The notes under the pieces: model-generated | What the model saw: only the letters and a program-made list of their open reading frames with translations | Database searches by the model: none | What the model was told of the DNA's origin: nothing | Source: a virus | Direction: 5' to 3' (one strand) | Length of the DNA: 29,121 nt | IMG/VR virus record: IMGVR_UViG_3300031525_000028 | Location: 1 to 29,121 of that record | Shown here: piece after piece, positions 2,047 to 27,468 of the stretch | Numbering within the stretch: the first letter of the stretch is position 1 | Layout: the number at the start of each line of letters is the position of its first letter | Position numbers and translations under genes: made by a program

Positions 2047-2901
2047 TTACTTAGCGCCTGCTCTTAAAAGCTGGATCTTAAGATACGCACTATTTGTCTG
2101 GGCATTTGTACCCAAAGTCGGTGCACTTAGGAAAACATTTGCCGTAGAAGTATTGGCCAATGTAAGTACGTCACCAACATTACAATAGATAAAAGTATCT
2201 GCCGTAATTTCATTCGAACCTTGGGCAGGTGAGAGCGGAATATTTGAGAACGTTGATCCAGGGACTATGACGCCATTCAAGAACAGACTAAGCGTCCAGA
2301 CGGGCAATGGAGCAGGAATTGGATTCAATGTGCCTGTCATTCCTGCAGCAACATCGTACCAACCCGCTAAATTTACCTTAAACTTACCTTGCGATGCTGC
2401 TAATGATGAATCGATATTTGAAGTTGAAATAATAAGGTTTTCTAAAAGAACAGTCCCACCTGCTTGGTTCGCAGCTGGTGATGGAGCTAAATTTTGAGAA
2501 ACCTGAGAATATGCTTCTGCAAACTCATTAATATCATCACTTTTACATTCAACGCAAGTTCCTGGGACGCCCTGCAAACCTTGTGGGCCTGCGACCCCTT
2601 GAGCTCCCATTGGTCCAACAGCACCATTTTGACCAGCTTGACCCTGGATTCCACTAACGCCAGCAGGTCCAGTTTCTCCGCGCGGTCCTGGTTGACCATC
2701 ATTTCCATTATTTCCTGGAATTCCTTGTGCGCCTTGCAGACCTGGAATTCCTTGTGCGCCAGCAGGCCCCGCATTTCCCTGAGCTCCAGTTTGTCCAGCT
2801 TGGCCTTGCGGGCCTGTTGCCCCTTGAATCCCTTGCAAACCTTGAGGTCCAACCGGACCGGCAGCGCCAGGGCAACAACCATTGCAATTTGAATCAGTCA
2901 T
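2047..2901 (-). CDS. Collagen-like virion protein with C-terminal jelly-roll-like domain
   Basis: A 284-residue protein starting MTDSNCNGCCPG; GGAG 7 bases upstream selects this ATG rather than one 12 codons earlier. Residues 12-113 are 34 uninterrupted Gly-X-Y triplets (for example GPVGPQGLQGIQGATGPQ), the signature of a collagen triple helix. The block is flanked by cysteines (C6, C9, C10 and C116, C119), which could cross-link a trimer. Residues about 120-284 look like a compact beta-rich trimerising head similar in style to BclA/TNF-like C-terminal domains (GWYDVAAGMTG, NVGDVLTLANTS, NSAYLKIQLL). Phage collagen-like proteins are usually fibres or head decorations. The position between scaffold and coat genes suggests a head-surface fibre, which is an inference. 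Confidence 0.85.
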   Translation of the reverse strand: MTDSNCNGCCPGAAGPVGPQGLQGIQGATGPQGQAGQTGAQGNAGPAGAQGIPGLQGAQGIPGNNGNDGQPGPRGETGPAGVSGIQGQAGQNGAVGPMGAQGVAGPQGLQGVPGTCVECKSDDINEFAEAYSQVSQNLAPSPAANQAGGTVLLENLIISTSNIDSSLAASQGKFKVNLAGWYDVAAGMTGTLNPIPAPLPVWTLSLFLNGVIVPGSTFSNIPLSPAQGSNEITADTFIYCNVGDVLTLANTSTANVFLSAPTLGTNAQTNSAYLKIQLLRAGAK

Positions 2902-2964
2902 AATAAAACTCCATGTATAATTAAACGTCCTTGTCAAGGATTATAATATCACCAATATTTGTCT

Positions 2965-7400: not shown

Positions 7401-7470
7401 GTATATTAATTTGATAAATAGTTTATCAGTTTTATATAATCTTAAATACTAATCCATATTGATGAAGATA

Positions 7471-8997
7471 TTAAATAAACATTGTGCGGTGCTCATTCCG
7501 CGGAATAATGACCATCGATGAATCGCTTTCATATCCATAAACACCGCTGAAGAACGTCAAACTGAGTGCGTCCGCTTCATCGGGTGACGGCATACCACGA
7601 GCACGTAAATCATCTTTAGATTCTATTAGCATTTGTCCATTGCTTCTCGGTCTCTTATTGCCCACAGAACAAAGAGCACCGTGCAAATCATCATCGTCCG
7701 GTATTTGAACCGGCAATTCATTTTGATACAGCCAGTCTTTCATCTCGTCCCACAATTCAACACGAACGTTAGCATAACGTTCTTTGTTATTTGCAGTGCG
7801 AGCTACATTAACACCTTCAACGCAACTAAATCCCAGTTCCAGCATTCGATCGACCACCCCAGCGCCAACACCGATACAATCTATATATACTTTAGCTGGC
7901 CGTTCTTCGCGTATAATTTGCGTAAGTTTTCCGCATATTTCCATCGTATTATGATTTCGATGTGTTTCTAGTCCATAAGCCCTTCGACCTTTTCGCCGAA
8001 TAATTGCAAGTTTGTCTTTATCTGATATGCCAACATCCACGCCGATGATTAACGGGCTATCTGTTGTAATATCATTGCGTCTTGCCCTCATAACAAACTT
8101 AGCATTGATAAAAGCATTGGCTGTAGGATTACGAAAAGCTTCATCCGCGTTCATGGGATATTCAGAGCAAAAACTATCTTTAGCAGAGTCTATATCATGT
8201 GATTTGCTTATCTTGATTCTACGCCATGCTAGGTGCTCAATCGTTAAACCATCATGTGCGTAAAAGTTTAATAATACTTGTTCTTCTTCGTCTAACTTAA
8301 AACCTTCGTGAAAAACTCTGTACTCGCTCATCCAATACCAAGGTATAAATATCGCTTGATATTCACTCGTCCCACTGTTCGCAGCCTTCCACGTGTTATG
8401 GAAATAGTTTCCAATACCATTAGCTGTTGACTCTAATATAATCTCAGTGCCTGCTTCGTTAGATACAGCTTCCATCACACCTTTGTCATGTAATTCCGCA
8501 TTCGGCCAGAATGCAACCTCACTCCCATGCAGTAATTGCAAAGTTTGCGAGCGACCTACTCCGGTATTGCCAGCGGTGCCGACACTGTAACCGGAATCAA
8601 ACTGAATGAACCGCAATTCTTTTGCGCTAGATCTATCAGCTTCGGGACACAAACCTGATGGCAAAGTATCATAATAACGTTTAGTCATCTCGAAGAGGTT
8701 CTTTGTTGCTTCGCTCTCGTGCGTCAAGATAAAAGCTTTCTGTCCACGCTTTGTGATTACTTTCTGAAAGTATCTCGCACCGATGTACGTGCTCATGCCC
8801 ATTTGTCGGCCTTTGAGCACTAACGCTCGCACTTTACCAGTTTCTCGTAGTTGATCTTCTAAGCGTTTGTGGGCAAATAGCTGCGCTTGATTTAGTTCAA
8901 ACGCAATAGGACGTCCCGCTTTGTTCTTAATAGTAAGAAAAGCGGGGGCAAACTTGGTCAGGTCTTTGAGCGTTGCAAGCTTGGCATCAGCTATCAT
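7471..8997 (-). CDS. terL: Terminase large subunit (ATPase/nuclease)
   Basis: A 508-residue packaging motor subunit. Walker A-like KGRQMGMST is at residues 62-70, Walker B with its catalytic Glu in LLHGSEVAFW (E160), and the coupling motif ESTANG at 189-194. The RNase H-like nuclease follows: IIGVDVG (D321), VYIDCIGVGAG (D373) and a C-terminal acidic motif SPDEADALSL. It cuts concatemers and drives DNA through the portal. The neighbours on both sides (TerS at 9261-9674, portal at 5250-7400) agree. Whether packaging is headful, as in P22 and Sf6, cannot be read from this gene alone. Confidence 0.95.
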   Translation of the reverse strand: MIADAKLATLKDLTKFAPAFLTIKNKAGRPIAFELNQAQLFAHKRLEDQLRETGKVRALVLKGRQMGMSTYIGARYFQKVITKRGQKAFILTHESEATKNLFEMTKRYYDTLPSGLCPEADRSSAKELRFIQFDSGYSVGTAGNTGVGRSQTLQLLHGSEVAFWPNAELHDKGVMEAVSNEAGTEIILESTANGIGNYFHNTWKAANSGTSEYQAIFIPWYWMSEYRVFHEGFKLDEEEQVLLNFYAHDGLTIEHLAWRRIKISKSHDIDSAKDSFCSEYPMNADEAFRNPTANAFINAKFVMRARRNDITTDSPLIIGVDVGISDKDKLAIIRRKGRRAYGLETHRNHNTMEICGKLTQIIREERPAKVYIDCIGVGAGVVDRMLELGFSCVEGVNVARTANNKERYANVRVELWDEMKDWLYQNELPVQIPDDDDLHGALCSVGNKRPRSNGQMLIESKDDLRARGMPSPDEADALSLTFFSGVYGYESDSSMVIIPRNEHRTMFI

Positions 8998-9006
8998 TGT
9001 GACTCA

Positions 9007-9243
9007 TTATCTTAGTGTAATTTCAACAGCTTTCCGGAAATCTTCAAGTGTCACTTGAATCATTTGTTCGTTGGCGTGTTTTTTGTAAGGTGATTTAGAA
9101 CTAATAATAATCATAACTCTATTCTTATCTATAGTTTCATCGTGTCTTATAAATTTGATGATTGTTTGTTTCTCTTTGTATTCTTGGTTGCAAATACCGT
9201 CTTCATCATGGTCATGGTTTACTGTTACTAATCTATACATCAT
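9007..9243 (-). CDS. Hypothetical 78-residue protein between terminase genes
   Basis: MMYRLVTVNHDHDEDGICNQ onward. Two tandem ATGs (9243 and 9240) follow AAGG, and either could be used. The protein is mixed alpha/beta with a His/Asp-rich N-terminal stretch and 'DKNRVMIIISSKSPYKK' in the middle. It contains no catalytic motif I recognise and no membrane segment. It is inserted between the small and large terminase genes, so it is co-transcribed with the packaging genes. Function unknown. Confidence 0.6.
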   Translation of the reverse strand: MMYRLVTVNHDHDEDGICNQEYKEKQTIIKFIRHDETIDKNRVMIIISSKSPYKKHANEQMIQVTLEDFRKAVEITLR

Positions 9244-9260
9244 TCACGCCTTTATATATG

Positions 9261-9674
9261 TCAGAGTTTATCAATAAGTTTTTCCAGCAGGGTGTCAGTG
9301 GTTGTTTTATCTTCGCCGACCTTGTCGCCGTAAACTCTCGGCAATAATTTAGACAATAACCATTTTCGAGAATCAATGCGAAGTCGTGCGCGATTAATGT
9401 TGTCGCTATTAACTTTAACTTTACCATCTATGATCTGATAATCGCCTTTGCTGTTGTCAGAAATTTCAATGATTTGATCAGCCAAAACGAACGCCTGTAA
9501 AGTTTTCGCGCGAGCGTATTGTTCACTGAATTTAGCGTGTTTTGAGCGCCATTCATAGATAGTTTTTGCTCTTGGCCAATGTTTGTTTTTTTTGCAAAGT
9601 TTGCGAATTCCTTCGCTTGTACAAGATACTTTTTGGCAAATTTCATCCGCTATTTCTTGAGAGAATTTAACCAT
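9261..9674 (-). CDS. terS: Terminase small subunit, Sf6/P22-like
   Basis: A 137-residue protein, MVKFSQEIADEICQKVSCTS onward. The N-terminal helix-turn-helix (ICQKVSCTSEGIRKLCKKN, then TIYEWRSKHAKFSEQYARAK) and the C-terminal DSRKWLLSKLLPRVYGDKV match the small-terminase family typified by Sf6 gp1. This subunit binds the packaging site and stimulates TerL. The frame is open further upstream, but AGGAT about 9 bases before the ATG at 9674 supports this start; the extra 18 codons would add a hydrophobic stretch unlike the family. A pac site is likely within or near this gene but cannot be located by eye. Confidence 0.88.
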   Translation of the reverse strand: MVKFSQEIADEICQKVSCTSEGIRKLCKKNKHWPRAKTIYEWRSKHAKFSEQYARAKTLQAFVLADQIIEISDNSKGDYQIIDGKVKVNSDNINRARLRIDSRKWLLSKLLPRVYGDKVGEDKTTTDTLLEKLIDKL

Positions 9675-9728
9675 TGCAATCAATCCTATCTTAATTAATA
9701 GAACAAATATAACACAATGGATTAGCAA

Positions 9729-12894: not shown

Positions 12895-13065
12895 TAATCC
12901 TAAATAATTTACGATAACATTTTTTGCTTCTTCAAAACCTTTGCAAATGACCGCTTCATGACCGAACGAATTTAAAGCCTCTAGGACGATTTTCTGTTCA
13001 GGTGATACTTTCCCACCAGTTTGTCTTTTTAATTCAATGTAGAGGCTGTGCTTGCCTTTAAACAT
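12883..13065 (-). pseudogene. 5'-truncated VRR-NUC nuclease remnant
   Basis: From the ATG at 13065 the frame encodes 60 residues: MFKGKHSLYIELKRQTGGKV onward to NVIVNYLGLCST. This is the C-terminal half of a VRR-NUC domain and aligns with the complete copy at 13603-13995 (LYIELKRQTGGKVSPEQ against LFLEMKKEKGGVVSEAQ). The E-x-K pair (E11, K13) is kept, but the upstream acidic residue of the 'G.PD' motif and the N-terminal helix are missing. The open frame continues up to 13143, but there it merely shadows the HNH gene. The ATG overlaps the HNH stop, so the fragment might still be translated by coupling. Confidence 0.7.
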
Positions 13066-13573
13066 AATCCTTAAGATCTTTCCATGTCTCTCGTAAACAA
13101 ATCGATCTAATATTTGTAGCGCTAACGGGATATAATTTAGCAAGTTTATAATAAGTGAACCCTTTTGAGTGTAAACTTCTTATTTCTTTTACTTGTTTTT
13201 CAGTTAATTTTGTTTTGTTATTATTTTTCCCGTAAAAAATAGGAGGAATTGTATCTGCACGTCTCCCTTTTAAATCTCTATCTCGATTGTTTTCTCTCGG
13301 AGTACCAAGCCACAAATGATCAGGATTAACGCATTTTCTATTATCACAAGTATGGCAAACACATAACTTTGTATTAAATTTTCCTTTATGAAAAAAATAG
13401 GATGCTCTATGAGCTGAATTTCCTATCCCTGTTAATCTAAAAACTCCATAACCATCTTGATCTAATTTCCCTGTCCAAATCCAACATAAATTAGGGTCTT
13501 CATTTTTTTGAATACACTTCATAAAATCATATTTTCTTACTAACAGGCCAAGAACACCATATTTTCCGCTCAT
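13058..13573 (-). CDS. HNH homing-type endonuclease
   Basis: A 171-residue protein, MSGKYGVLGLLVRKYDFMKC onward. An N-terminal WIWTGKLDQDGYGVFRL block leads into the HNH_3-type core (residues 54-95: HRASYFFHKG, CVCHTCDNRKCVNPDHLWLG) with H74, N83 and H86 and zinc-type cysteines C73, C76 and C81. The C-terminus (LTEKQVKEIRSLHSKG...YYKLAKLYPVS) is a helix-turn-helix DNA-binding region. AGGAGG 7 bases upstream gives a very strong start at 13573. Such free-standing HNH genes are mobile and insert near or in other phage genes; here the gene directly abuts a decapitated VRR-NUC gene. Confidence 0.9.
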   Translation of the reverse strand: MSGKYGVLGLLVRKYDFMKCIQKNEDPNLCWIWTGKLDQDGYGVFRLTGIGNSAHRASYFFHKGKFNTKLCVCHTCDNRKCVNPDHLWLGTPRENNRDRDLKGRRADTIPPIFYGKNNNKTKLTEKQVKEIRSLHSKGFTYYKLAKLYPVSATNIRSICLRETWKDLKDYV

Positions 13574-13602
13574 TATATTTCCTCCTGATATATGTAAGAA
13601 TA

Positions 13603-13995
13603 TCACAAGGAGAAATAATGCGCAATCTCATTTATTGCATGATCAGCGCCATGACAAACTTCAACTTTATAATTTTGTTCTCGTAAAATTCCTATCCAAT
13701 ATTTTTGCGCTTCCGAGACAACTCCGCCTTTTTCCTTTTTCATTTCCAAAAACAATCCATGCCACTTTCCGCACGCTATTGGAATCATTAAATCAGGTAT
13801 ACCGGCCATTACACCAGAGCGCTTTAAACGCATAGCTTCAAACATTCCACGTTTCCCGCCGTTCGGAATACAAAAATATGGTAATCCACGTTTTGCTAAA
13901 TAAACACAGACCTTAGTTTGTTCATGCTCTTCTTCATATTTTCGAACTTTCTTCTTTGGGAATAGTTTGGTGCTGATCTTTGCTTTCCTTAGCAT
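13603..13995 (-). CDS. VRR-NUC domain nuclease
   Basis: A 130-residue single-domain nuclease of the PD-(D/E)xK superfamily. It has the VRR-NUC signature in order: HEQTKVCVYL (helix 1), IPNGGKRG, GVMAGIPDLMI (catalytic D68), LFLEMKKEKGG (E84, K86) and SEAQKYWIGIL. Stand-alone phage proteins of this type are thought to be structure-specific or resolvase-like DNA nucleases that act in replication or recombination. GGAGAG 5 bases before the ATG at 13995 favours this start over ATG 14007. It overlaps the upstream small gene by 62 bases. Confidence 0.9.
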   Translation of the reverse strand: MLRKAKISTKLFPKKKVRKYEEEHEQTKVCVYLAKRGLPYFCIPNGGKRGMFEAMRLKRSGVMAGIPDLMIPIACGKWHGLFLEMKKEKGGVVSEAQKYWIGILREQNYKVEVCHGADHAINEIAHYFSL

Positions 13996-14412: not shown

Positions 14413-15498
14413 CTACTCTGCTGGCAAGCTCCAAATTTTGCCTCTTCTGCCCACAAATGAATCATTTTCATAAATTTTTAGTGCATTTTTTGCCGCGTAC
14501 ATTCTGTTGACTGATAGTCCGTCTGCCTCAAAAGCCTTTCTAATTTCAGAGACAGGGACAGATCCATTTCTGAGCATTTCTAGTAAAAGTGTTTTAGCAT
14601 CATCCAATTTTGGGCTACTTTTGTCCCTCTGTGAGTTAAGCAAATCATCGGCTGTCTTATTAGATGTTTCATTAGACCATTTGATACGACTTGTTTCAAT
14701 TTTATCCACCAAAAACGATTCAATGGTATAAATAAGTCCTTTACTTTCTTTGACAAGATTGTTTTTAATGGAAGAAACAACACGTTTTTCAGGATCTTCA
14801 TCATCCTTTAAAACAGCAAAAGCCATCCGTGATCCAGCGATAAACCCAATACTTCCCATAACACGATAAATCGCAGAACTTTTGCTGGCATTATTAGAGG
14901 GTTTAGTAAAATGGCTATTCAGAACAATACATGCATGATGTCTTTCTGCTAACGCATTAAGTATTGCTAATACATGGCGTATTTCTTTGTTTTTCCCATC
15001 ATCTATAGAACCTAAATATAATGAGATTGGATCAATAATAATCAATTTATACGCATTGGCTTTGATTTGATTTTCCAGCTCTACAATATTTTCAACAATA
15101 GAAATTGGGCTAAAATATTCATTACCACCAGCATCAAATGTCTGTATGCCTTTAACGTAATCTATATTTTCCAAATCCGCACCAAGCGCCATTAATCGTG
15201 GTTTGATAGTGTCATCGGCGTTGTCCTCATTACAAATTAAAAGTACTTTGTCCTTATTGCAAAGACGGTTTTCCCCATGAAACCTACCGCCTAGACTGAC
15301 AATACTGGCCATGTAAAGAAGCAATTGAGATTTTCCAACGCCTGGTTCGCCAGCATAAATAGTGATTTTTCCATACGCTAATCGTTCCTTCCATAGCCAA
15401 TTGACATTTTTTTGGTTTACTTCTGATATTTTACCGACGGCCATTTCTCCGGATTTTTCGTGTTTTTTGGCTTCATTTTGTATAAGAGTTAATCTCAT
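14413..15498 (-). CDS. RepA-like hexameric DNA helicase / AAA ATPase
   Basis: A 361-residue RecA-fold ATPase. Walker A GEPGVGKS is at residues 50-57, the acidic KVLLICNEDNADDTI motif around 84-98, Walker B KLIIIDPISLYLG at 151-163 (D156) and the sensor-like IVLNSHFTKPS at 191-201. The C-terminal 60 residues contain a small winged-helix-like region (PVSEIRKAFEADGLSVNRMY). This matches the RepA/AAA_25 type of replicative or accessory helicases found with phage primases. The start overlaps the primase stop (ATGA), so the two are translationally coupled and probably work together at the fork. Confidence 0.85.
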   Translation of the reverse strand: MRLTLIQNEAKKHEKSGEMAVGKISEVNQKNVNWLWKERLAYGKITIYAGEPGVGKSQLLLYMASIVSLGGRFHGENRLCNKDKVLLICNEDNADDTIKPRLMALGADLENIDYVKGIQTFDAGGNEYFSPISIVENIVELENQIKANAYKLIIIDPISLYLGSIDDGKNKEIRHVLAILNALAERHHACIVLNSHFTKPSNNASKSSAIYRVMGSIGFIAGSRMAFAVLKDDEDPEKRVVSSIKNNLVKESKGLIYTIESFLVDKIETSRIKWSNETSNKTADDLLNSQRDKSSPKLDDAKTLLLEMLRNGSVPVSEIRKAFEADGLSVNRMYAAKNALKIYENDSFVGRRGKIWSLPAE

Positions 15499-16406
15499 AT
15501 TTTGTCCTTAAGTTGTAATTCCATTGTAGTCATGCCAGCTAATCGCATTAAATCGTTGAAATCAGTGGGTTTGCTTGAAACATTTAATCCTGAAAAATCG
15601 GGATATCGAATGAGTGTGTTATATTGATTAGCGCAGTATATGGCTGCTTTAAGCCCAGTGTTTGTGGTTGTCCATTGATCGTTATCGGCACATATCACAA
15701 TCGTATGGTAGGGATATCTTACACGCATAAGACGCGCAACGTGTTTCAAATTCTCGGCACTAAAGGCCACTATAACAGGTGCGCCAACAGCTTCATAAAT
15801 TGAACATCCAGTAGCCCACCCCTCGCATATTCTTATGGTATTACCTATTGTTATCTTTTCACCTAAGCATAAATACCCTTCAGCCGGACTTGTGCCGCGT
15901 TTAAATCTTTTGCGGCCATTCTTGGCGATAAACTGTAAGGATTGGATATTTCCGTCATAATCATAAACAGGGACAACAAGCCTAGATCTAATTTGTCCGC
16001 AATAAACCGGCTTGATCCCTTTTCTCAATACATATGGATGCCGAACGTCAACAGCAACACAACTATGATGCCTAACCATAAGTTTAGTTCGATGGATTGC
16101 ATAACGCCTAGCGGCTTCTTCAGAATGCACCAGACCTTCTAGCAGTAATTGACGCTGCTTTTTTTGTTGCGTTGTTAATTGCTCGTGAGGAACAGCCCAC
16201 CAAGTAATCCAACTTGTGGAATCTCGCCAATCTCCGAAGGCAGCGCCATCTCCTCCTCCAAGAATAATGACAAAGAGATCTTTTCCCCTCCAGCGCCGAG
16301 ATATACGCCTGAAGCGCTGGAACTTGGTTGATGAATAATTGATTTTGCCGTCAATATCAAAACCATGATTTTGTAATTCTTTTTCCAGTAAGTCGTGAAA
16401 TTGCAT
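15495..16406 (-). CDS. DNA primase with TOPRIM domain
   Basis: A 303-residue protein, MQFHDLLEKELQNHGFDIDG onward. The TOPRIM domain lies in the second half: TIRICEGWATGCSIYEAVG (catalytic E195) and HTIVICADNDQ (D241, D243), followed by GLKAA. The first half contains GGGDGAAFGDWRD and VVPVYDYDGNIQSLQF, typical of the phage/plasmid primase family related to P4-alpha and Toprim_3 proteins. No zinc finger is seen. It would make RNA primers for the helicase encoded next. ATG 16406 overlaps the RNase HI stop as TAATG with AGGAT upstream; a start at 16430 would run into that gene. Confidence 0.88.
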   Translation of the reverse strand: MQFHDLLEKELQNHGFDIDGKINYSSTKFQRFRRISRRWRGKDLFVIILGGGDGAAFGDWRDSTSWITWWAVPHEQLTTQQKKQRQLLLEGLVHSEEAARRYAIHRTKLMVRHHSCVAVDVRHPYVLRKGIKPVYCGQIRSRLVVPVYDYDGNIQSLQFIAKNGRKRFKRGTSPAEGYLCLGEKITIGNTIRICEGWATGCSIYEAVGAPVIVAFSAENLKHVARLMRVRYPYHTIVICADNDQWTTTNTGLKAAIYCANQYNTLIRYPDFSGLNVSSKPTDFNDLMRLAGMTTMELQLKDKI

Positions 16407-16822
16407 TAACTTAATCCTATAGCTTTCCAAGACAATTTATCTGCAAGACCGTTAAATTCTCTTGGTAACCACTCAAATTGTATTCGAGAGAAATGTTGTA
16501 TTAAGTCCTTTGTTCTGCATGCAATATCGGTGTACGCGCCTTTTCCAATTTGCCATTTTCCTGAAAGCTGGTTAATAACAAGCTGAGAATCGCCGCGAAA
16601 AATAATGGGAAGCTGCTGCCAGTTTTTATAAATTAAATATTTTAATGCCGCATAAGCAGCGCAGTACTCAGCCATGTTATTAGTGGTTTTTACATCGCTC
16701 CCGCATTTATATTCTTTAGAAATCTCATAAACTATTTTACCATCGTTAAAAATAATCGCTCCATAGCCTATACGGCCATAGGGGTTGGGCGCGCATGCCC
16801 CATCAAAATACACTTCAATCAT
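16406..16822 (-). CDS. rnhA: Ribonuclease HI
   Basis: A 138-residue RNase HI with all four catalytic acids: D7 (VYFDGAC), E52 (NNMAEYCAAY), D78 (FRGDSQLVINQL) and D128 (NGLADKLSW). It degrades the RNA strand of RNA:DNA hybrids, here most simply primers or an R-loop at the origin. The length is close to the E. coli enzyme (155) but without the basic handle loop. AAGGAT 8 bases upstream supports the ATG. Phage-encoded RNase HI lying between an initiator and a primase suggests a role in origin priming or Okazaki-fragment processing, which is inference. Confidence 0.93.
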   Translation of the reverse strand: MIEVYFDGACAPNPYGRIGYGAIIFNDGKIVYEISKEYKCGSDVKTTNNMAEYCAAYAALKYLIYKNWQQLPIIFRGDSQLVINQLSGKWQIGKGAYTDIACRTKDLIQHFSRIQFEWLPREFNGLADKLSWKAIGLS

Positions 16823-16851: not shown

Positions 16852-16977
16852 TCAAATATCAAATATCTTTGCTAAATCTATCATAAACCTCTCATATGCC
16901 TCTGGACTTGCAAATAGCGCTTCATGTTTCAAAAGAAGTCTTTGTATTGCGTTGTAAAAATAATATCCATTTTCCAT
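16852..16977 (-). CDS. Small hypothetical protein (41 residues)
   Basis: MENGYYFYNAIQRLLLKHEA onward to FMIDLAKIFDI, 41 residues, two short helices. AAGGAA 7 bases before the ATG is a good ribosome-binding site, and the gene ends 29 bases before the RNase HI start in the same direction. The regular amphipathic pattern argues that it is a real micro-protein. Function unknown. Confidence 0.5.
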   Translation of the reverse strand: MENGYYFYNAIQRLLLKHEALFASPEAYERFMIDLAKIFDI

Positions 16978-17059
16978 AGCATTTCCTTTTGCTTTGTCCG
17001 TAAAAAACAAATAAACTGGGTCTATAGAAATTATTCAGTTACACCCTCCTTACTGTTTC

Positions 17060-17086
17060 CGCCCTTGGCCACAAGGGCGTTTTTTT
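17060..17086 (+). terminator. Strong intrinsic terminator facing right
   Basis: CGCCCTTG (17060-17067), loop GCCA and CAAGGGCG (17072-17079) form a perfect 8-bp GC-rich stem, followed by seven T (17080-17086). It is a textbook rho-independent terminator for rightward transcription, yet every gene from 11669 to 17626 reads leftward. On the leftward RNA the hairpin lacks a U tract. It may end an antisense or small RNA. Confidence 0.8.
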
Positions 17087-17092
17087 AAATAA

Positions 17093-17626
17093 TCAAATAT
17101 TCAGTCGATCATAATCAGGATGCCCAGGCCCCCAGAATGTAGCTAATTGTTTTTGTTCTTTGTTTGTTTTTTGATCTTTCGTTTGATCTTTCGATTTACC
17201 AAAATCTTTATTTATATTCTTAAGATTAAGCTTCTTCGTATTATGTATCGCTCTAGCGATACCCCCCCTATCGCTCTGGCGATACCCCCCTATCGCTGTA
17301 GCGATACCCTTATCCACAGGTTGTTCATTAATTGATTCTTTTATTATCTCTATATGGCGACTCGGTTGAATGAAATATCTTTTGCCGTCTTTTGTTATTC
17401 TCTTTAGCTCGCCATGGGCTTCGAAATATTTAAAAGAATCAATTAATGTAGAAATTGAAGTGACTCCAGTTCTTTCTTTGATCATCTCATTACTAAGAAA
17501 ACACGGTTTCCCATGATTTAAAAACTGAAATATTGTTTCGTAAATGCGCAAATAGGCCAATGTTATATTAGGCAAATTTAAAATTCTGGAAGGAACAATA
17601 AAAAAAGCTGCTTGATATTCTGACAT
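17093..17626 (-). CDS. Winged-helix replication initiator (lambda O-like role)
   Basis: A 177-residue protein, MSEYQAAFFIVPSRILNLPN onward. Residues about 35-90 form a helix-turn-helix/winged domain of the HTH_36 type (LSNEMIKERTGVTSISTLID, then YFEAHGELKRITKDGKRYFI). The C-terminal part is Lys/Gln-rich and disordered, ending FWGPGHPDYDRLNI. The central region is encoded by three palindromic iterons next to a DnaA box, so the gene carries its own likely origin, as lambda gene O does. It heads the leftward operon of RNase HI, primase and helicase. AAGGA 8-9 bases upstream supports the start. An alternative role as a transcriptional regulator cannot be excluded. Confidence 0.7.
   Translation of the reverse strand: MSEYQAAFFIVPSRILNLPNITLAYLRIYETIFQFLNHGKPCFLSNEMIKERTGVTSISTLIDSFKYFEAHGELKRITKDGKRYFIQPSRHIEIIKESINEQPVDKGIATAIGGYRQSDRGGIARAIHNTKKLNLKNINKDFGKSKDQTKDQKTNKEQKQLATFWGPGHPDYDRLNI
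17246..17318. other. Putative replication origin: three iterons and a DnaA box
   Basis: Three 16-bp palindromes at 17246-17261 (TATCGCTCTAGCGATA), 17269-17284 and 17291-17306 recur every 22-23 bp, separated by runs of 6-7 C. They differ only in the central bases. TTATCCACA, the perfect E. coli-type DnaA box, follows at 17310-17318, and an AT-rich stretch (17320-17355) lies beyond it. Iterons plus DnaA box plus AT-rich DNA inside an initiator gene is the classical build of a theta origin. Activity is inferred. Confidence 0.75.
17420..17446. repeat. 27-bp direct repeat, copy inside initiator gene
   Basis: The 27 bases here recur at 17644-17670 with a single mismatch (A for C at the 18th base). 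This copy encodes LIDSFKYFE in the initiator's winged-helix domain. See the partner entry. Confidence 0.85.
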
Positions 17627-17643: not shown

Positions 17644-17670
17644 TTCGAAATATTTAAAAGCATCAATTAA
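17644..17670. repeat. 27-bp direct repeat, copy in the divergent promoter region
   Basis: Partner of 17420-17446. Read leftward it would encode LIDAFKYFE, then a few codons and a stop that overlaps the initiator ATG; the frame closes a short way upstream. It looks like the tail of a related initiator gene left behind by recombination, and it now lies in the 5' leader of the present initiator. Confidence 0.7.
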
Positions 17671-17744: not shown

Positions 17745-17927
17745 ATGGAAAAAGAAATAAAAATTATTAGGTTCCCTGAACTTAAAGAAACACTTGGAGT
17801 AAGTCGAAATACGATCGATCGCTGGGAAAGAGATAGTAACTTTCCAAAAAGAATTAGACTGGGAAAAAACAGCATCGGCTGGGATGCGCATCTAATCGAT
17901 ATATGGCTAAAGCAAAGACAGGAATGA
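17745..17927 (+). CDS. AlpA-like / excisionase-type regulator
   Basis: A 60-residue MerR-fold DNA-binding protein, MEKEIKIIRFPELKETLGVS onward. The helix-turn-helix 'FPELKETLGVSRNTIDRWER' is followed by the AlpA-family wing 'FPKRIRLGKNSIGWDAHLIDIWL'. AlpA proteins activate prophage or integrative-element genes or act as recombination directionality factors. It is the first gene of the rightward operon and is divergent from the initiator, the usual place for the switch regulator. TAGGA lies about 8 bases before the ATG. No integrase is in the window, so an excision role is unproven. Confidence 0.88.
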   Translation: MEKEIKIIRFPELKETLGVSRNTIDRWERDSNFPKRIRLGKNSIGWDAHLIDIWLKQRQE

Positions 17928-17951
17928 TCTTCATAGGGATACGATTCGGAC

Positions 17952-17984
17952 GGTAAGTAAGAAGCTTAGAACTCCTTACTCACC
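17952..17984 (+). promoter_or_regulatory. Leader hairpin downstream of the AlpA gene
   Basis: GGTAAGTAAG (17952-17961) and CTTACTCACC (17975-17984) pair at 9 of 10 positions around a 13-base loop, in the 88-base gap between the AlpA-like gene and the next gene. There is no T run, so it is not an intrinsic terminator. An RNA structure or a DNA-binding repeat is possible. Confidence 0.45.
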
Positions 17985-18015
17985 TGCATTCAATTAACGG
18001 GAAAGGAAAATTAAT

Positions 18016-18159
18016 ATGCTGGAAAACAGTATAGTACAATTTATAACAGAAACACAATACTCAGATAAAGAACAAATTTTCTGCCCTATGTGCGATATAT
18101 GGCATGAAAACACCTCATGGTGCCAGGCGCCGTGCCAATTCCCAGGAAGGGAGGACTAG
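18016..18159 (+). CDS. Small Cys-rich protein, possible zinc knuckle
   Basis: A 47-residue protein, MLENSIVQFITETQYSDKEQ onward. The second half carries CPMCDIWHENTSWCQAPC: a CxxC followed by WC and C, with His, suggesting a small zinc-binding knuckle. AAAGGAA precedes the ATG at good distance. It ends 3 bases before the next gene. Phage proteins of this kind are often host-factor binding, but no function is known here. Confidence 0.55.
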   Translation: MLENSIVQFITETQYSDKEQIFCPMCDIWHENTSWCQAPCQFPGRED

Positions 18160-18162
18160 AAC

Positions 18163-18384
18163 ATGGAAAAAATTAATACATATATTGATCATTGTTTGAT
18201 CCAAGAATACGGGACACCGAACAAAGAACTCAATTGTTTTGAACTAGATATTGATGATTTACCAGATAACGAACTAGATAATTTTCTACATCGGTTAATG
18301 CAAGAAGATACGACGGTGCGTGATGTTGTTCATCACCACATGCAAAAACTGATAGAAAAAAGACTGTGCGAGGTGACGCCATGA
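18163..18384 (+). CDS. Hypothetical acidic helical protein
   Basis: MEKINTYIDHCLIQEYGTPN onward, 73 residues, with a strongly acidic centre (ELDIDDLPDNELDNFLHRLM) and a His-rich stretch (VVHHHMQKLIEKR). GGGAGG lies about 8 bases upstream. The stop overlaps the next ATG (ATGA). No known domain. Located upstream of recT in the rightward early operon. Confidence 0.65.
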   Translation: MEKINTYIDHCLIQEYGTPNKELNCFELDIDDLPDNELDNFLHRLMQEDTTVRDVVHHHMQKLIEKRLCEVTP

Positions 18385-18530
18385 TGCGTGACCAAGTAAC
18401 AGCAAAGCAACGGCTAAAAATGACAGATAAAATATGGGAAATGATAATAATCATCCTGATTTGGTCAGCGGCCGCAATGTTTACAATCTTTTACATTTTC
18501 GTTCTATTAAAAATACTGGAGATCATTTAA
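18381..18530 (+). CDS. Small single-span membrane protein
   Basis: MMRDQVTAKQRLKMTDKIWE onward, 49 residues. A basic N-terminal 18 residues are followed by a long hydrophobic segment (MIIIILIWSAAAMFTIFYIF) to near the end. The ATG overlaps the preceding stop as ATGA, so translation is coupled, and recT begins 2 bases after its stop. Likely an inner-membrane micro-protein; function unknown. Confidence 0.55.
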   Translation: MMRDQVTAKQRLKMTDKIWEMIIIILIWSAAAMFTIFYIFVLLKILEII

Positions 18531-18532
18531 TC

Positions 18533-19402
18533 ATGTCTATGTCACAACAATTAGTAAAATCACACCATGCCCCGTTTCTAATAACACCGCAAACTATTAC
18601 AGAAGCGATGGAATATGCAAAGATGATATCCAATAGTTCGTTTTGTCCCAAAGGCATGCAGGGAAAACCTGGTGATGTGATTATCGCTATACAAATGGGC
18701 GCAGAGGTCGGTCTCAGCCCCATACAAGCTTTACAGAACATAGCTGTCATTAGCGGACGGCCTTGCATTTGGGGAGATGCATCACTTGCATTAGTACAAG
18801 CGTCACAACATTATGTGTCGCATAGAGAATGGGAAGAAGTCACTGACCAAGGACTAAAAGCATTCTGCGCTATCACTAGAAAAGGTTCTGAGGAGTATGT
18901 TAAGTCATTCTCTGAAGCAGATGCTAAGAAAGCTGGATTATGGAACAAAGCAGGAACATGGGTACAATATCCATCACGCATGCTACAGATGCGAGCAAGA
19001 AGTTTTGCGCTTCGAGATAAATTCGCAGATGTATTAAAAGGCTTAAGCATTCGTGAAGAGATCGAGGACTATCAAGATTTCCAGGAAGCGCCGAGATCAA
19101 AGATTGTGCCGATTGCATCCAAGCAAACGATTAAGATAAAAGTGGTCCCAGTAGAATACGATCACGATGAATTCATGGCTGCTGTTGAAGAAATTAATAA
19201 CTGCAAAAACGAAACCGAATTAAAAACAATTTTCACCGCAGCTTATAAAAACCAAAAGATCGCATGCAATATGAAATCCAAGAATGCTTTAATCAAAGCC
19301 AAAGATGAAAAGAAACTCCAACTTGGACAAGAAGAATTTTTAAACGACTACGATTCAAGCACCGGCGAACTTGCTCAAGCTTCAGAGGAGGCCCCATCAT
19401 GA
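18533..19402 (+). CDS. recT: RecT-family single-strand annealing recombinase
   Basis: A 289-residue protein, MSMSQQLVKSHHAPFLITPQ onward. The core carries GDVIIAIQMGAEVGLSPIQA, ISGRPCIWGDASLALVQ, then FSEADAKKAGLWNKAGTW and YPSRMLQMRARSFALRDKF, the conserved order of RecT/Bet-like annealases of the 'GLSP.QAL..I..I.GRP' group. These proteins anneal complementary single strands during phage recombination and replication. The C-terminal 90 residues are charged and variable. The longer frame to 18434 overlaps the membrane micro-gene and is not used; the ATG at 18539 is a possible second start. It is followed by a 4-base overlap with a Gp157-like gene; no exonuclease partner is adjacent. Confidence 0.88.
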   Translation: MSMSQQLVKSHHAPFLITPQTITEAMEYAKMISNSSFCPKGMQGKPGDVIIAIQMGAEVGLSPIQALQNIAVISGRPCIWGDASLALVQASQHYVSHREWEEVTDQGLKAFCAITRKGSEEYVKSFSEADAKKAGLWNKAGTWVQYPSRMLQMRARSFALRDKFADVLKGLSIREEIEDYQDFQEAPRSKIVPIASKQTIKIKVVPVEYDHDEFMAAVEEINNCKNETELKTIFTAAYKNQKIACNMKSKNALIKAKDEKKLQLGQEEFLNDYDSSTGELAQASEEAPS

Positions 19403-19887
19403 AACTCTACGAAATTTCAAATGAATTTCAAAATATTGTTGACTTAATTGAAAATTGTGATGAAATGTCACCCGAACTAATTGATAAACTTAATAATGTT
19501 TCAGAGAACGCCTCCGAAAAGGTAATAAATGTCGCAGCATATATTAAAAACTTAGAAGCAGAATCGGACACCATGCAGCTTTATTTAAACAACATGAGAA
19601 ATCGACAAGATAGAGTTGAGAAGAGAATTGAATCATTAAAAGAGTATCTGAAATACAATATGGATATATTAAAACTAAACAAAGTCGAATCCCCAGAATT
19701 TGACGTGCAATTGCGAGCGAATAATTATTCACTAGATTTATTTGACCAAACAGCAATACCAAAAGAATATTTTAGGACTAAAGAAAGTATCAGCATATCA
19801 AAACAAGATATTATTAAAGACCTTAAAGTTGGTTGCGATGTGCCCGGTGCAAGATTCGTCACAACAAAATCAGTGCTAATTAAATAA
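19399..19887 (+). CDS. Siphovirus Gp157-like protein
   Basis: A 162-residue protein, MKLYEISNEFQNIVDLIENC onward. The long central coiled coil (INVAAYIKNLEAESDTMQLY, RQDRVEKRIESLKEYLKYNM) followed by a short beta-rich tail (AIPKEYFRTKESISISKQDI...DVPGARFV) is the architecture of the Gp157 family (named from streptococcal phage Sfi21, where expression affected phage sensitivity). Genes of this family usually neighbour single-strand annealing or SSB genes, as here behind recT. GAGGAGG 8 bases upstream and an ATGA overlap with recT support the start. Confidence 0.85.
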   Translation: MKLYEISNEFQNIVDLIENCDEMSPELIDKLNNVSENASEKVINVAAYIKNLEAESDTMQLYLNNMRNRQDRVEKRIESLKEYLKYNMDILKLNKVESPEFDVQLRANNYSLDLFDQTAIPKEYFRTKESISISKQDIIKDLKVGCDVPGARFVTTKSVLIK

Positions 19888-23131: not shown

Positions 23132-23218
23132 ATGAAATACGAATTTGCATTAGATTCTATAGTTATTATCACATTTATTGTGGTGATGGTGTTATTGTCC
23201 TATTTAATATCTCATTAA
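23132..23218 (+). CDS. Possible 28-residue membrane peptide
   Basis: MKYEFALDSIVIITFIVVMV followed by LLSYLISH: a single hydrophobic span with a short charged N-terminus. There is no convincing ribosome-binding site, and the stop overlaps the convergent fibre stop by 4 bases. It resembles the other micro membrane proteins of this phage in composition, which is why it is listed. Confidence 0.3.
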   Translation: MKYEFALDSIVIITFIVVMVLLSYLISH

Positions 23219-26200
23219 CGAGCCCGCCTGGCATAAATTCCACCACTACCATTTAATGTGCCTGTACCGCTTACATTCCCTACCAAATATACAGCTTGTG
23301 TAGTAGCAACAGTAAATCGTCTTTGTGGAGCCACAAGACCTATATTCACACTCGTAGCAAGTGGAGAGACATAAGTAAAAAGAGATGAATCAGGAAGGGT
23401 ATTAGTAGCAGTATTCAATCCGACAGCACCATTAGTAATAGTTGTGCCAGCCCAATCAATATTTCCCCAAACATCCCAGTCGCCAGCACTTAAAGTGATT
23501 GTCTGTAAAGTTTTTGCTACGCCTGTGCTAAAAGTGATCGGTGATCCGGACACATTAGAAGCAGACATAAATTCACCTACATATCCTGCACTTGCATTAT
23601 CATTTGTAGTCGTTCCAACAATACCATTTGTAGTGGGACTGAATGTTATACTAGTTGCAGTAGCAGCCCCTAACGTTGGAGTGACTAATGTGGGTGATGT
23701 CGCAAGAACAGGAGAGCCTGATCCAGTTGAGGCGACCCATGTAGGGACACCACCAGCTGTTGTTGTAAGGACTGCGCTGTTAACAATCGTTACTCCACTC
23801 ACTGTGGTACCAGCAGCGGCATAATAAGCTAACTGATTAATTAATCCAGAACTAACAGTACCAGTACCTGTGGAGGGTGAAGATATCCAGTTAGTCCCAT
23901 TTGATGTTAGAACATTACCTGACGTACCAGGGACAGCATATGTTTCTGTTGAGGCGACCCAGTTTGTACCGTCGGAGACAATGATCTTTCTAGCTGTAGC
24001 TGAAGCATTAGGAAACGTTGGAGTGCTTGCAATCCAATTAGTCCCATCACTTACCATGATAATTCCAGCAGCGGAACTTGCATTTGGGAACGTTGGCGTA
24101 GAGAGAACATAATTCGTACCATTGCTTAATAGTAACTTATTAGCAGTAGCACCCGCTGACGTTGGAATAGTCGAAGTCGAATAACCAATATTCGTTCCGT
24201 CTGAAATTAAGAATTTTCCTGAAGTCCCACTAGCACTTGGATAAGTAGGAGTCGACCAAGAGGCCGTCCCTGAAGTAGATGCTTGCAGCACCTGGCCAGT
24301 AGTCCCAGCGGACAATATTGAAGGTACACCCGATCCACTAGTTACCAGTACACCAGAATTTGCTGTTGCTAATGCTGACATAACATTGGCAGCGCTTGCA
24401 TATAGAAGAGTATTAATTGCGTTTGTTGTTGGATAAGTGCTAGTTGTATTAACGATATTAGTGCCGTTCGAAATTAATAATGTTCCAGCAGCGCCAGACG
24501 TTGAAGGAAAAGTAGTCGTTGAAAGCACATAGTTTGTTCCATCACTCGTTAAAACTTTACCAGCGACCGCTCCAGCAGAAGTTGGTATCGTTGAAGTGGA
24601 ATAAACATTGTTTGTCCCATTCGAGATCAAGAACAATCCAGACGCTCCCGATGCAGAAGGATACGTAGGCGTAGACCAAGCCGGCGTTCCCGCGGTTGAA
24701 GCTTGTAATACTTGTCCCGTTGTTCCAGCAGCGAGAACGGAAGGAACGCCTGTGCTACTAGTGACTAATACTCCAGAATTCGCCGTTGCGAGAGCTGACA
24801 GTACATTTGCAGCACTGGCATAAACTAATGTATTGATCGCATTTGTATTTGGATATGTGGTTGTAGTCGCGACCCAATTAGTCCCATCTGATCTTAATAT
24901 CGTACCAACAGCGCCAACACTTGCTGGGAACGCGGCAGAGGAAAGGACATAATTCGTACCATCGCTAACGAGTGCTTTACCTGCTGTGACGCCTGCACTT
25001 GTTGGTATTGTAGATGTTGAGTAAACATTATTTGTACCATCGGAAATGAGAAACTTACCTGACGCGCCGCTAGCACTTGGATAGGTCGGCGTTGACCAAG
25101 TAGCAATAGAACTGTTCCCCGATTGTAGCACCCTGCCAGCAGCTCCAGGGTTCGTTAATAACTGAGGCACACTACTTGCATCAGTAACAAGAACACCGCC
25201 AGCATTACTGGTAAGACCTGCAATTGTATTAGTAGCGCTTGAATACAATAATTGATTAGCCGTTGTTGTAACAGGATAAGTAGCAGTAGACCAAGCAACA
25301 CCGGGTGTAGCGCCAGAGGCAACTTGTAACATCATTCCATTCGTAGTACCTACGGGTATTCTAATGTTTCCAGTAGAATAACCAATTAAGTCACCTTTTG
25401 TTGTGAGAGGACTTATGTTATTAAAGGAAGTTACTGTATTGGCAACGTCACTTAAATTATTGGCTTTTAATAAGACTTGGGTTGACGAAAAAGTAAACTG
25501 ACTAAATTGTATTGGATCTGTTCCGACAGCAGTTACCGTATCGGTTTGTACGAATGATGTACCTGCATATAATGTTCCATTATTAATAATGATCAAGTCA
25601 CCAGGATTGATTTGACTAGGTTGATTATAAAATGTGGCCCTCGTTAAAATGGCGGGTAATATTGCAGATCCAGTTTGAGTTAAAGTATATATTCCATTTT
25701 GAAAAGTAGTTGTTTGAAATTGTACTAATATTTCTGCATTAGTCGCAGGTGTAGTACCATCAGTGGTAAATACAGCATTCGATCCGGCTGTTAATGTTGC
25801 TCCGATCCCACTTGATCCATTTAAATAAGTATATCCGGCTAAATTTGCAGTAGTTGAAGCATAAGCGGCAGGCTTAACACTAAGACCTGCTGCGAATGAA
25901 TCTACATATGCTTTTGTAGCGGCGTCAGTCCCATTTGTAGGTGTGCCAAGCCCTACAATCTTATTGCTGTTCATATTTATGGGGCCGCCCATCGTCCCGC
26001 CAGCAAGAGGCAAATAAAATCCTAATTGGGTATTCAGATATTCTAAATTAACAGCATCTTTAGCAAGCGTTGGGTCTGCCATGTTATCAATCTTGAAATT
26101 ACCCATATTTATAGCACCTTGCATGGTGCCGCCGAGTAATGGCAAGAAAGTTGCTGCTGTTGTATTTAAATAGTTTAACGTGACCGCATCTTGGGCATGG

Positions 26201-27468
26201 GTAGGATCTGTAATATTACTGATTTGATGGCTGCCCATATTTAAAATGCCACTCATAGTGCCGCCAGTGAGAAGCAAATAAAGTGCTAATTGAGCATTTA
26301 AATATTCGATATTAACGGCATCTTTAGCAAGGGTGGGATCTGCCATATTGCTGATTTTGAAATTACCCATATTAATGACACCTGCCATGGTGCCACCAGC
26401 GAGAGGCAAATAAGCACCAGCAGTTGTAGTAAGATAGGATAAAGTCACTGCATCTTGTGGATTTACAGGATTAGCTAGACTATTAATTCCAAACGTTCCC
26501 ATATTGATGGCGCCAGTCATAGTGCCGCCAGACAATGGAAGATAGCCTGTCACACTGCTTGTCAGATAAGCTTTAGTTACTGCATCTTGTGGATTTATGG
26601 GATTTGCCATATTAGTGATATTAAAACCACCCATGTTAATAACACCAAGCATCGTGCCACCAGCAAGCGGTAAGAATGATCCTCCGACGCTGGTCACGTA
26701 CGCTTTAGTCGCAGCGTCCTGGGGGTTAATTGGGTTTGCTAAGTTCGTAATATTAAACCCACCCATGCTAAACGCTTGGGACTGCGTGCCTAATTGTGTG
26801 ATATTGGACTGTACGGCTGTCGGTAATGTCGTACTTAATGATGGGACACTTCCTGCGCTTGTCACTAATACACTATTCGCAAGCGGTGCAATCACTGAAT
26901 AAGTCGTTGGAGAAGTAAAATAAGGAACCGCATTTGCGACACCGCTGACAGCTGCAAGAGAAGTAAGTGCCGCACTATAAGCTTGTACATTCACACCAAT
27001 TGCAAGACCTAGATTTGTTCTAGCGGTCGATGCGTTAGTAAGATCAGAAAGATTATTAGCTGATAACAAAAACGTTGCCAACGACGTTACGGCCGGAAGA
27101 CCAAAGCTACCAGTCGTATTTGCCCAAAAACTATTTGCTGCAATCGCTGTAAATGAAATAGTCCCAGTTGATGTAATGGGGCCACCAGTCAGGCCTAACC
27201 CTGTATTAACAATCGTGACCGACCCACCGCCGCCCCCAGAACCTAATTCAACCCAATCAGTAGCGTGAGCATTCCAATATTCATAATCAGAGAGATCAGT
27301 GTTATATCCCAACAGACCATTATATGGTGTCGCTGGACGCGTTGCTGTAGTCCATGTGACAGTTACAGGCGATTGTGAGTTAACACCATTGGATAGACCA
27401 ACGTTTACATTGTTAGGCGCCGAGGGAACAGTCGCAGCAAATTCAGAAAACTTAATCGTTGAAACCAT
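23215..27468 (-). CDS. Long repetitive tail fibre protein
   Basis: A 1417-residue fibre. Residues 1-90: virion-attachment region (PYNGLLGYNTDLSDYEYWNA, then a poly-Gly hinge). Residues about 240-510: six 'LPLAGGTMxGxINM...NPQDAVTKAYL' repeats of 36-45 residues. About 510-680: a unique domain (SVKPAAYASTTANLAGYTYL). About 720-1200: some fourteen 25-28-residue repeats of the 'FPxxxGxxGxxLxSDGTNWVxST' type, arranged in three larger units each beginning WSTPTYPSASG. About 1210-1417: a C-terminal beta-rich head (TLSAGDWDVWGNIDWAGTTI...), probably the receptor-binding tip. AAGGA 7 bases upstream fixes the start. Confidence 0.9.
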   Translation of the reverse strand: MVSTIKFSEFAATVPSAPNNVNVGLSNGVNSQSPVTVTWTTATRPATPYNGLLGYNTDLSDYEYWNAHATDWVELGSGGGGGSVTIVNTGLGLTGGPITSTGTISFTAIAANSFWANTTGSFGLPAVTSLATFLLSANNLSDLTNASTARTNLGLAIGVNVQAYSAALTSLAAVSGVANAVPYFTSPTTYSVIAPLANSVLVTSAGSVPSLSTTLPTAVQSNITQLGTQSQAFSMGGFNITNLANPINPQDAATKAYVTSVGGSFLPLAGGTMLGVINMGGFNITNMANPINPQDAVTKAYLTSSVTGYLPLSGGTMTGAINMGTFGINSLANPVNPQDAVTLSYLTTTAGAYLPLAGGTMAGVINMGNFKISNMADPTLAKDAVNIEYLNAQLALYLLLTGGTMSGILNMGSHQISNITDPTHAQDAVTLNYLNTTAATFLPLLGGTMQGAINMGNFKIDNMADPTLAKDAVNLEYLNTQLGFYLPLAGGTMGGPINMNSNKIVGLGTPTNGTDAATKAYVDSFAAGLSVKPAAYASTTANLAGYTYLNGSSGIGATLTAGSNAVFTTDGTTPATNAEILVQFQTTTFQNGIYTLTQTGSAILPAILTRATFYNQPSQINPGDLIIINNGTLYAGTSFVQTDTVTAVGTDPIQFSQFTFSSTQVLLKANNLSDVANTVTSFNNISPLTTKGDLIGYSTGNIRIPVGTTNGMMLQVASGATPGVAWSTATYPVTTTANQLLYSSATNTIAGLTSNAGGVLVTDASSVPQLLTNPGAAGRVLQSGNSSIATWSTPTYPSASGASGKFLISDGTNNVYSTSTIPTSAGVTAGKALVSDGTNYVLSSAAFPASVGAVGTILRSDGTNWVATTTTYPNTNAINTLVYASAANVLSALATANSGVLVTSSTGVPSVLAAGTTGQVLQASTAGTPAWSTPTYPSASGASGLFLISNGTNNVYSTSTIPTSAGAVAGKVLTSDGTNYVLSTTTFPSTSGAAGTLLISNGTNIVNTTSTYPTTNAINTLLYASAANVMSALATANSGVLVTSGSGVPSILSAGTTGQVLQASTSGTASWSTPTYPSASGTSGKFLISDGTNIGYSTSTIPTSAGATANKLLLSNGTNYVLSTPTFPNASSAAGIIMVSDGTNWIASTPTFPNASATARKIIVSDGTNWVASTETYAVPGTSGNVLTSNGTNWISSPSTGTGTVSSGLINQLAYYAAAGTTVSGVTIVNSAVLTTTAGGVPTWVASTGSGSPVLATSPTLVTPTLGAATATSITFSPTTNGIVGTTTNDNASAGYVGEFMSASNVSGSPITFSTGVAKTLQTITLSAGDWDVWGNIDWAGTTITNGAVGLNTATNTLPDSSLFTYVSPLATSVNIGLVAPQRRFTVATTQAVYLVGNVSGTGTLNGSGGIYARRAR
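23880..25310 (-). repeat. DNA encoding the SDGTN-type fibre repeats
   Basis: About fourteen units of 75-84 bp encode the Gly/Ser/Thr/Asn repeat of the fibre, nested in three longer units of about 420 bp (boundaries near 24240, 24660 and 25080). The copies differ heavily at silent positions while the protein pattern is kept, so the array is old and under selection rather than a recent slippage product. Confidence 0.75.
25970..26790 (-). repeat. DNA encoding the GGTM-type fibre repeats
   Basis: Six units of roughly 108-138 bp encode the 'GGTMxGxINMG' repeat, a shaft motif common in podovirus and myovirus fibres; a degenerate seventh copy (MGGFNITNLANPINPQDAAT) lies at the N-terminal side. Copies with 'NPQDAVT' and with 'TLAKDAVN' alternate, suggesting duplication in pairs. 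Confidence 0.75.

Follow-up and report, generated by a model that had tools for sequence, protein, structure and literature searches.

A probable lambda-O-type phage replication origin inside the coding sequence of its own winged-helix initiator

The DNA analyzed here (the window) is a linear IMG/VR fragment of 29,121 bases, in which a minus-strand operon for replication begins with a gene for a 177-residue protein (Table 1). This gene is followed by a 52-codon open reading frame and by genes for an RNase HI, a Toprim primase, and a RepA-like helicase; a preliminary description of the window had credited the operon with its own set of these three enzymes, and Pfam and PHROG matches bore this out. 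Three 16-bp palindromes, with start-to-start spacings of 23 and 22 bp in the order of the window coordinates, lie inside the 177-residue reading frame about 300 bp into the gene, away from the promoter. The copies are separated by C7 and C6, and CCC follows the last of them (17291-17306). The palindromes, their 22- to 23-bp spacing, the C-run spacers, and the position of all of these within winged-helix coding sequence had been described before, and each was found in place. The window has no further copy of them: when the 29,121-base record was searched with the iteron pattern and up to 3 mismatches allowed, 7 matches were obtained, six of which were the three sites read on both strands; in 100 shuffles the mean was 0.89 and the maximum was 4. 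The C-run spacers were set aside as a functional element, as most relatives of the gene are without them.

Table 1. Features of the initiator locus; positions are those of the window except where a relative is named.
Feature	Positions	Strand	Basis or remark
Initiator gene, 177 aa; winged-helix N domain (aa 1-90), then predicted disordered linker and tail	17093..17626	-	ORF, AF2
Predicted recognition-helix codons (aa 58-70)	17417..17455	-	helix 58-70 in model
DnaA box TTATCCACA	17310..17318	+	3 bp from array
Iteron 1 (gene order), TATCGCTACAGCGATA on gene strand	17291..17306		plus-strand reading TATCGCTGTAGCGATA
Iteron 2, TATCGCCAGAGCGATA on gene strand	17269..17284		plus-strand reading TATCGCTCTGGCGATA; 22 bp after iteron 1
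Iteron 3, TATCGCTAGAGCGATA on gene strand	17246..17261		plus-strand reading TATCGCTCTAGCGATA; 23 bp after iteron 2
Probable DNA unwinding element, codes HNTKKLNLKNINK	17194..17245		nearest-neighbour stability
Short C-terminal tail LATFWGPGHPDYDRLNI	17096..17146	-	common to L141, there KFWGPGHPDWERLNL
52-aa ORF between initiator and RNase HI	16852..17010	-	no Pfam or PHROG match
RNase HI	16406..16822	-	PF13456 (E 1e-13), PF00075; phrog_531
Toprim primase	15495..16430	-	PF13362 (E 1e-10); phrog_2249 (E 2e-52)
RepA-like hexameric helicase (AAA_25)	14413..15498	-	PF13481 (E 6e-24); DnaB/primase-helicase PHROGs
Cold-shock-like gene downstream of initiator in relatives	L016 6022-6234; L140 3581-3784; L142 8047-8277; L143 6518-6730; L151 2609-2806; L155 4417-4668; L160 4003-4239; L161 1032-1241; L162 8210-8425

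To describe the encoded protein, an AlphaFold2 (AF2) model was built on an alignment of 21 sequences. Residues 1 to 90 were confidently modeled as a winged helix (pLDDT of 81 to 97, falling to about 50 beyond), with helices at 46-53 and 58-70, a two-strand wing, and disorder past residue 95 or so. Family searches were less telling. The protein scored 17.2 bits against Pfam HTH_36 (PF13730), below the cut-off of 25, which relative L142 exceeded with 27.3 bits. Unlike lambda O, it fell short of Phage_rep_O (PF04492), to which it had no match; relative L140 also scored below the curated cut-off of that family (13.4 versus 28.7 bits). Searches of PHROG, NCBIfam, and the RepA_N Pfam likewise gave no match, and Foldseek of the model against the PDB returned nothing below 0.001. 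The structural neighbors were generic winged helices, among which staphylococcal plasmid initiators (4pql, 4pt7, and 5kbj; Z of 7.9 to 8.7) were tied with Fur and ORC2. Taken alone, the sequence of the window protein thus offers weak evidence for a role as initiator. Its short C-terminal tail is a possible partner-binding peptide.

A family of related loci was then assembled. L016 was found with the window protein as the query, five more relatives were found with a two-sequence alignment, and the remainder were found with a 94-residue alignment of the N domain that ends before the array and therefore excludes it. After removal of duplicates there were 20 distinct relatives, consisting of 18 viral contigs, a prophage of Legionella londiniensis (L164), and a contig filed under a Bacteroidetes metagenome-assembled genome (L163). 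L163 may be misbinned, since its palindrome is the same as that of the Legionella prophage. A first scan of genome contigs gave no relatives and a second gave two loci; a protein search among named phages with the initiator gave nothing credible. When the exact palindrome of the window was used as a DNA pattern in viral contigs, a true tandem array was present, among the matches listed, only in L016. Such scans are poor at finding arrays because the palindrome sequence is lineage specific.

In 19 of the 20 relatives, 2 to 4 copies of a lineage-specific palindrome were found at the same place in the gene, for example TATCGCCACGGCGATA in L016, TCTCGACTTAGCGAGA in L145, GTCCGCTCCAGCGGAC in L140, GTCTACAGCTGTAGAC in L143, and GCCGGAGAATCGGC in L141. 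The middle copy is degenerate in L164, and no clear dyad array was found in L161, the one exception. On the gene strand, 12 relatives share with the window a spacing of exactly 22 and then 23 bp, and the arrays of the others contained at least one step of 22 or 23 bp; most arrays surpassed both 100 dinucleotide shuffles and 100 codon shuffles. It is the DNA and not the peptide that is conserved, since the palindromes differ and the frames shift while the spacing stays fixed. The array might nevertheless be a tandem repeat at the level of the protein, a flexible linker with no function of its DNA, as disorder is predicted for the linker it encodes and repeats can come from slippage. However, successive copies occupy reading frames 2, 0, and 2 and so encode different peptides, and dyad symmetry is retained at fixed spacing though the sequences differ between lineages, and we consider this the least probable of the readings weighed here.

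The conserved symmetry lay in the outer part of each site. Half-site pairs at positions -7 to -4 were complementary in 151 of 156 cells, with not a single G-T wobble, and the center was free to vary. The term "full palindrome" in the preliminary description therefore holds insofar as each site is an inverted repeat whose outer pairs are almost always complementary family-wide, but pairing is not conserved among the central six bases. Such a pattern is what a dimer-binding site in double-stranded DNA should show, rather than a hairpin in RNA. A short stem-loop could in principle form in RNA from each copy, so that the repeats might act as mRNA hairpins in the control of translation or stability or in antisense control. 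Such a role is scarcely credible given the lack of wobble in the 156 cells, the conserved helical spacing, the covariation with a DNA-binding helix described below, and copies such as GTCTACAGCTGTAGAC, which are palindromic throughout and leave no loop.

The dyads adjoin DNA of low stability. In the window, the least stable 35 bp of the gene were located at about 17194-17228, inside an AT-rich stretch that reaches 17245 (17206-17245, 77.5% AT) and that is abutted by iteron 3. Measured from where the last palindrome ends, the start of the least stable 35 bp fell at -3 to +17 bp in 19 of 20 genes. An AT-rich stretch had been noted previously on the other flank of the array, and this stretch (17319-17358) does exist, with 72.5% AT; the conserved AT-rich element, however, is the one on the opposite side, at 17194-17245. 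The flank at 17319-17358 was set aside as a functional element, being absent from relatives. Cumulative GC skew, which had been proposed as a check, had its minimum at 17 to 18 kb, but the gene direction switches there as well, and this confounded measure was given little weight.

The DnaA box next to the array, also described before, was confirmed as the only perfect one in the 29 kb. Since 1.83 perfect boxes are expected by chance per window, a single one is not above chance, and the box is of interest for its position beside the array, not for its occurrence. A perfect box lay inside the array or no more than 50 bp 5' of it in 5 of 20 genes (the window, L139, L141, L147, and L155), versus 0.02 genes expected from codon shuffles. 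DnaA is therefore likely to help in some lineages, and it appears to be dispensable in most.

To determine which part of the protein might read the palindromes, pairwise differences between palindromes were compared with pairwise differences between protein segments (Mantel test). Palindrome divergence followed divergence of the segment at residues 55 to 69 (r = 0.72), and the association persisted when the rest of the domain was removed (partial r = 0.65; P = 0.0002) and after near-duplicate palindromes were dropped (partial r = 0.59). The N terminus and the wing showed no association with the palindromes once the rest of the domain was accounted for (partial Mantel test). The peak of covariation coincides with the predicted recognition helix, residues 58 to 70. 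Within two subfamilies the association was weaker (partial r of 0.38 [P = 0.04] and 0.36 [P = 0.07]), and the permutation P values of the Mantel test correct for shared ancestry incompletely. Since the palindromes diverge in step with the recognition helix but not with the remainder of the domain, they are probably bound by the encoded protein, as a dimer; the case is strong but falls short of proof. For this initiator family, we found no description of such a multilineage association of helix and palindrome in the open-access literature, and it is the part of the analysis most relevant to specialists.

Binding by the encoded protein would also be compatible with a different function, in which the palindromes are operators through which a winged-helix regulator represses its own gene from inside and replication starts elsewhere. 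In favor of this, repressors typically combine a winged helix with palindromic sites, and the best structural matches include Fur-like regulators besides initiators. Yet the array is deep within the gene, away from the promoter, and borders the DNA of lowest stability in the gene, the neighboring genes encode helicase loaders or DnaB, and the PHROGs matched by the relatives concern replication initiation, not regulation. Several relatives matched PHROG 270, "replication initiation protein," and the O-like PHROGs 678, 391, and 345 (E values of 1e-24 for L144, 3e-22 for L139, and 3e-16 for L140), and the alignment of these three with the window protein spans the N domain. Moreover, the next gene encodes a P-like helicase loader in L139, L140, L143, L144, L155, L160, and L163 and DnaB in L142 and L162; that is, one or the other adjoins the initiator in nine relatives, wherever a replication gene was recognized. 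We therefore regard a purely regulatory array as very unlikely; autoregulation through binding at the origin could exist alongside the origin role. At least nine relatives also have a cold-shock-like gene (motif VKWFN..KG.GFI) shortly downstream of the initiator, a place where the window has none.

With the location, geometry, symmetry, covariation, and stability minimum established, we interpret the array as part of a theta-type phage origin of the lambda O kind, situated inside the coding sequence of its own initiator and working by the mechanism outlined here; we put the probability of this reading at about 0.88. The earlier proposal of an origin embedded in the initiator gene is well supported by the comparative data, namely, the array, its symmetry, the covariation, and the position of the unwinding element in relatives. 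A dimer of the 177-residue protein would bind each palindrome through helix 58-70, as the covariation suggests. With three such dimers lined up on one face of the helix at intervals of about two turns, an O-some-like complex would then arise, bending the DNA and melting the AT-rich stretch at 17194-17245; position and analogy suggest this step. Help would probably come from host DnaA bound at the adjoining box, which this initiator family can do without. Finally, and this is the weakest step, the phage helicase and primase would be brought in, taking the role that a P-type loader and host DnaB have in lambda, with the conserved tail FWGPGHPDYDRLN as a candidate contact for their recruitment. 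The DNA would be free to keep its sequence because the linker encoded by the iterons and the AT-rich DNA is predicted to be disordered.

The enzymes of this last step set the window apart from its relatives, in which a P-like loader or DnaB follows wherever a replication gene was recognized. None of the 20 relatives was found to combine a short initiator tail with a phage-encoded RNase HI, primase, and RepA-like helicase, as the window does. With the window helicase as the query, no close relative was found in viral contigs, and no full-length homologue was found in the records of 18 relatives; we did not treat a weak, partial match in the L154 record (E = 3e-4) as homologous. The primase query did find relatives, none of them with the initiator, RNase HI, or helicase of the window alongside. 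A more far-reaching proposal is that the winged-helix domain and the origin travel as one cassette, whose palindrome code could be read from the recognition helix, and that the cassette is joined here to a new mode of starting forks: an initiator with no C-terminal loader-binding domain would recruit the RepA-like helicase, Toprim primase, and RNase HI via the short FWGPGHPDYDRLN tail, with host DnaA helping. We offer this proposal as a speculation that is unlikely to hold in full.

The closest known parallel is phage lambda. In the passages cited (PMC5043065, PMC7466680, PMC3349717), the iterons of lambda are 19-bp inverted repeats, nearly perfect, to which O dimers bind; they are located in the middle of gene O, and a 38- to 40-bp AT-rich stretch lies next to them. 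The contrast with lambda drawn in the preliminary description, in which full palindromes were peculiar to the window, fails, since the lambda iterons are inverted repeats as well. As far as these accounts extend, lambda O and its origin share with the window an N-terminal DNA-binding domain (predicted in the window), inverted-repeat iterons about two turns apart inside the initiator gene, and an AT-rich stretch after the iterons; lambda also has a helicase-loading gene downstream, and the window has its AAA_25 helicase in the same operon. By the same accounts, the two differ in that lambda has four iterons of unrelated sequence versus three in the window and uses the P loader with host DnaB, whereas the window encodes its own helicase and primase. 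A DnaA box beside the iterons is not described in the cited passages (PMC5043065, PMC7466680, PMC3349717), and the window has one.

Comparable arrangements occur elsewhere. According to the section cited (PMC8022706), lambda, P22, and phage L have divergent O-like initiators, each with different repeats inside its own gene. As described there (PMC8022706), gp18 of P22 and gp18 of Salmonella phage L resemble the window in their internal repeats and in the accompanying phage-encoded helicase; their repeats differ, and their helicase is of the DnaB type, versus AAA_25/RepA-like in the window. That section (PMC8022706) does not report an RNase HI for P22 or L, and the window encodes one. In SPP1, oriL lies in gene 38, where the initiator binds repeats and an AT-rich unwinding element is present (PMC6316719). 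Thus, SPP1 is like the window in having initiator repeats within the gene itself (binding in the window being predicted) together with an unwinding element; it is unlike the window in its direct repeats, its second origin (oriR), and its use of a loader with a DnaB-type helicase. In the pSK41-like staphylococcal RepA_N plasmids, the boxes bound by the winged-helix N domain lie midway through its gene, the linker encoded by the origin is dispensable, and the C domain is genus specific; in pPR9, the N domain and origin are replaced by a phage-like helix-turn-helix of PF13730 (HTH_36) (PMC5703833). Staphylococcal plasmid initiators of this kind (4pt7 and 4pql) were similar in fold to the window model, with Z values of 8.3 to 8.7 that were tied with those of unrelated winged helices. 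The plasmid systems differ from the window in that their initiators belong to another sequence family, their setting is Firmicute plasmids, and their iterons are A-tract iterons. The internal-origin arrangement of the lambda O type is therefore already known, and the window adds another case. The designation "distinct replicon type" applied in the preliminary description was too strong, given the phage-specific iterons inside the initiator genes of lambda, P22, and L and the internal origins of SPP1 and RepA_N plasmids.

Some 20 lineages with the same layout and different palindromes constitute a natural data set for joint change of specificity in initiator and origin, which could show which residues of the recognition helix read which half-site. 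The layout also provides a sequence rule for finding origins in uncultured phages: dyads 22 and then 23 bp apart, followed by AT-rich DNA, inside a winged-helix gene. In the window, where the initiator tail is short and the phage brings its own primase and helicase, the question of how the loader step can be replaced becomes tractable.

Several other features of the window were recorded. Just upstream of the initiator start codon, a 27-bp stretch (17644-17670) matches the recognition-helix codons at 17420-17446 in 26 of 27 positions. It encodes a variant, LIDAFKYFE, that resembles IIDAFKYFE of L016, and it ends a short open frame (YIATILIDAFKYFEFNKEN*). The copy was absent from all relatives checked, and it has the appearance of a remnant left when initiator alleles recombined. 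Between the 3' end of the initiator gene and the 52-codon frame there is a strong intrinsic terminator, CGCCCTTGGCCACAAGGGCG followed by T7 (17060-17086, plus strand); no plus-strand gene is evident there, and the terminator would stop antisense transcription. A divergent operon opposite the replication operon (17745-19887, plus strand) encodes an AlpA-like regulator, a RecT-like annealing protein, and a Gp157/Gam-like protein. The morphogenesis genes (5250-9728 and 23215-27468, both minus strand) are of podovirus type as judged by their products, which include a P22-like portal, a terminase, an Sf6-like small terminase, and a 1,417-residue tail-fiber-like protein with long internal repeats and a match to the T7 tail-fiber N domain. 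A collagen-repeat protein with a weak BclA-like C-terminal match is encoded beside the head genes (2047-2937, minus strand). Downstream of the replication operon, a gene for an HNH homing-type endonuclease (13058-13606, minus strand) overlaps the end of a VRR-NUC gene.
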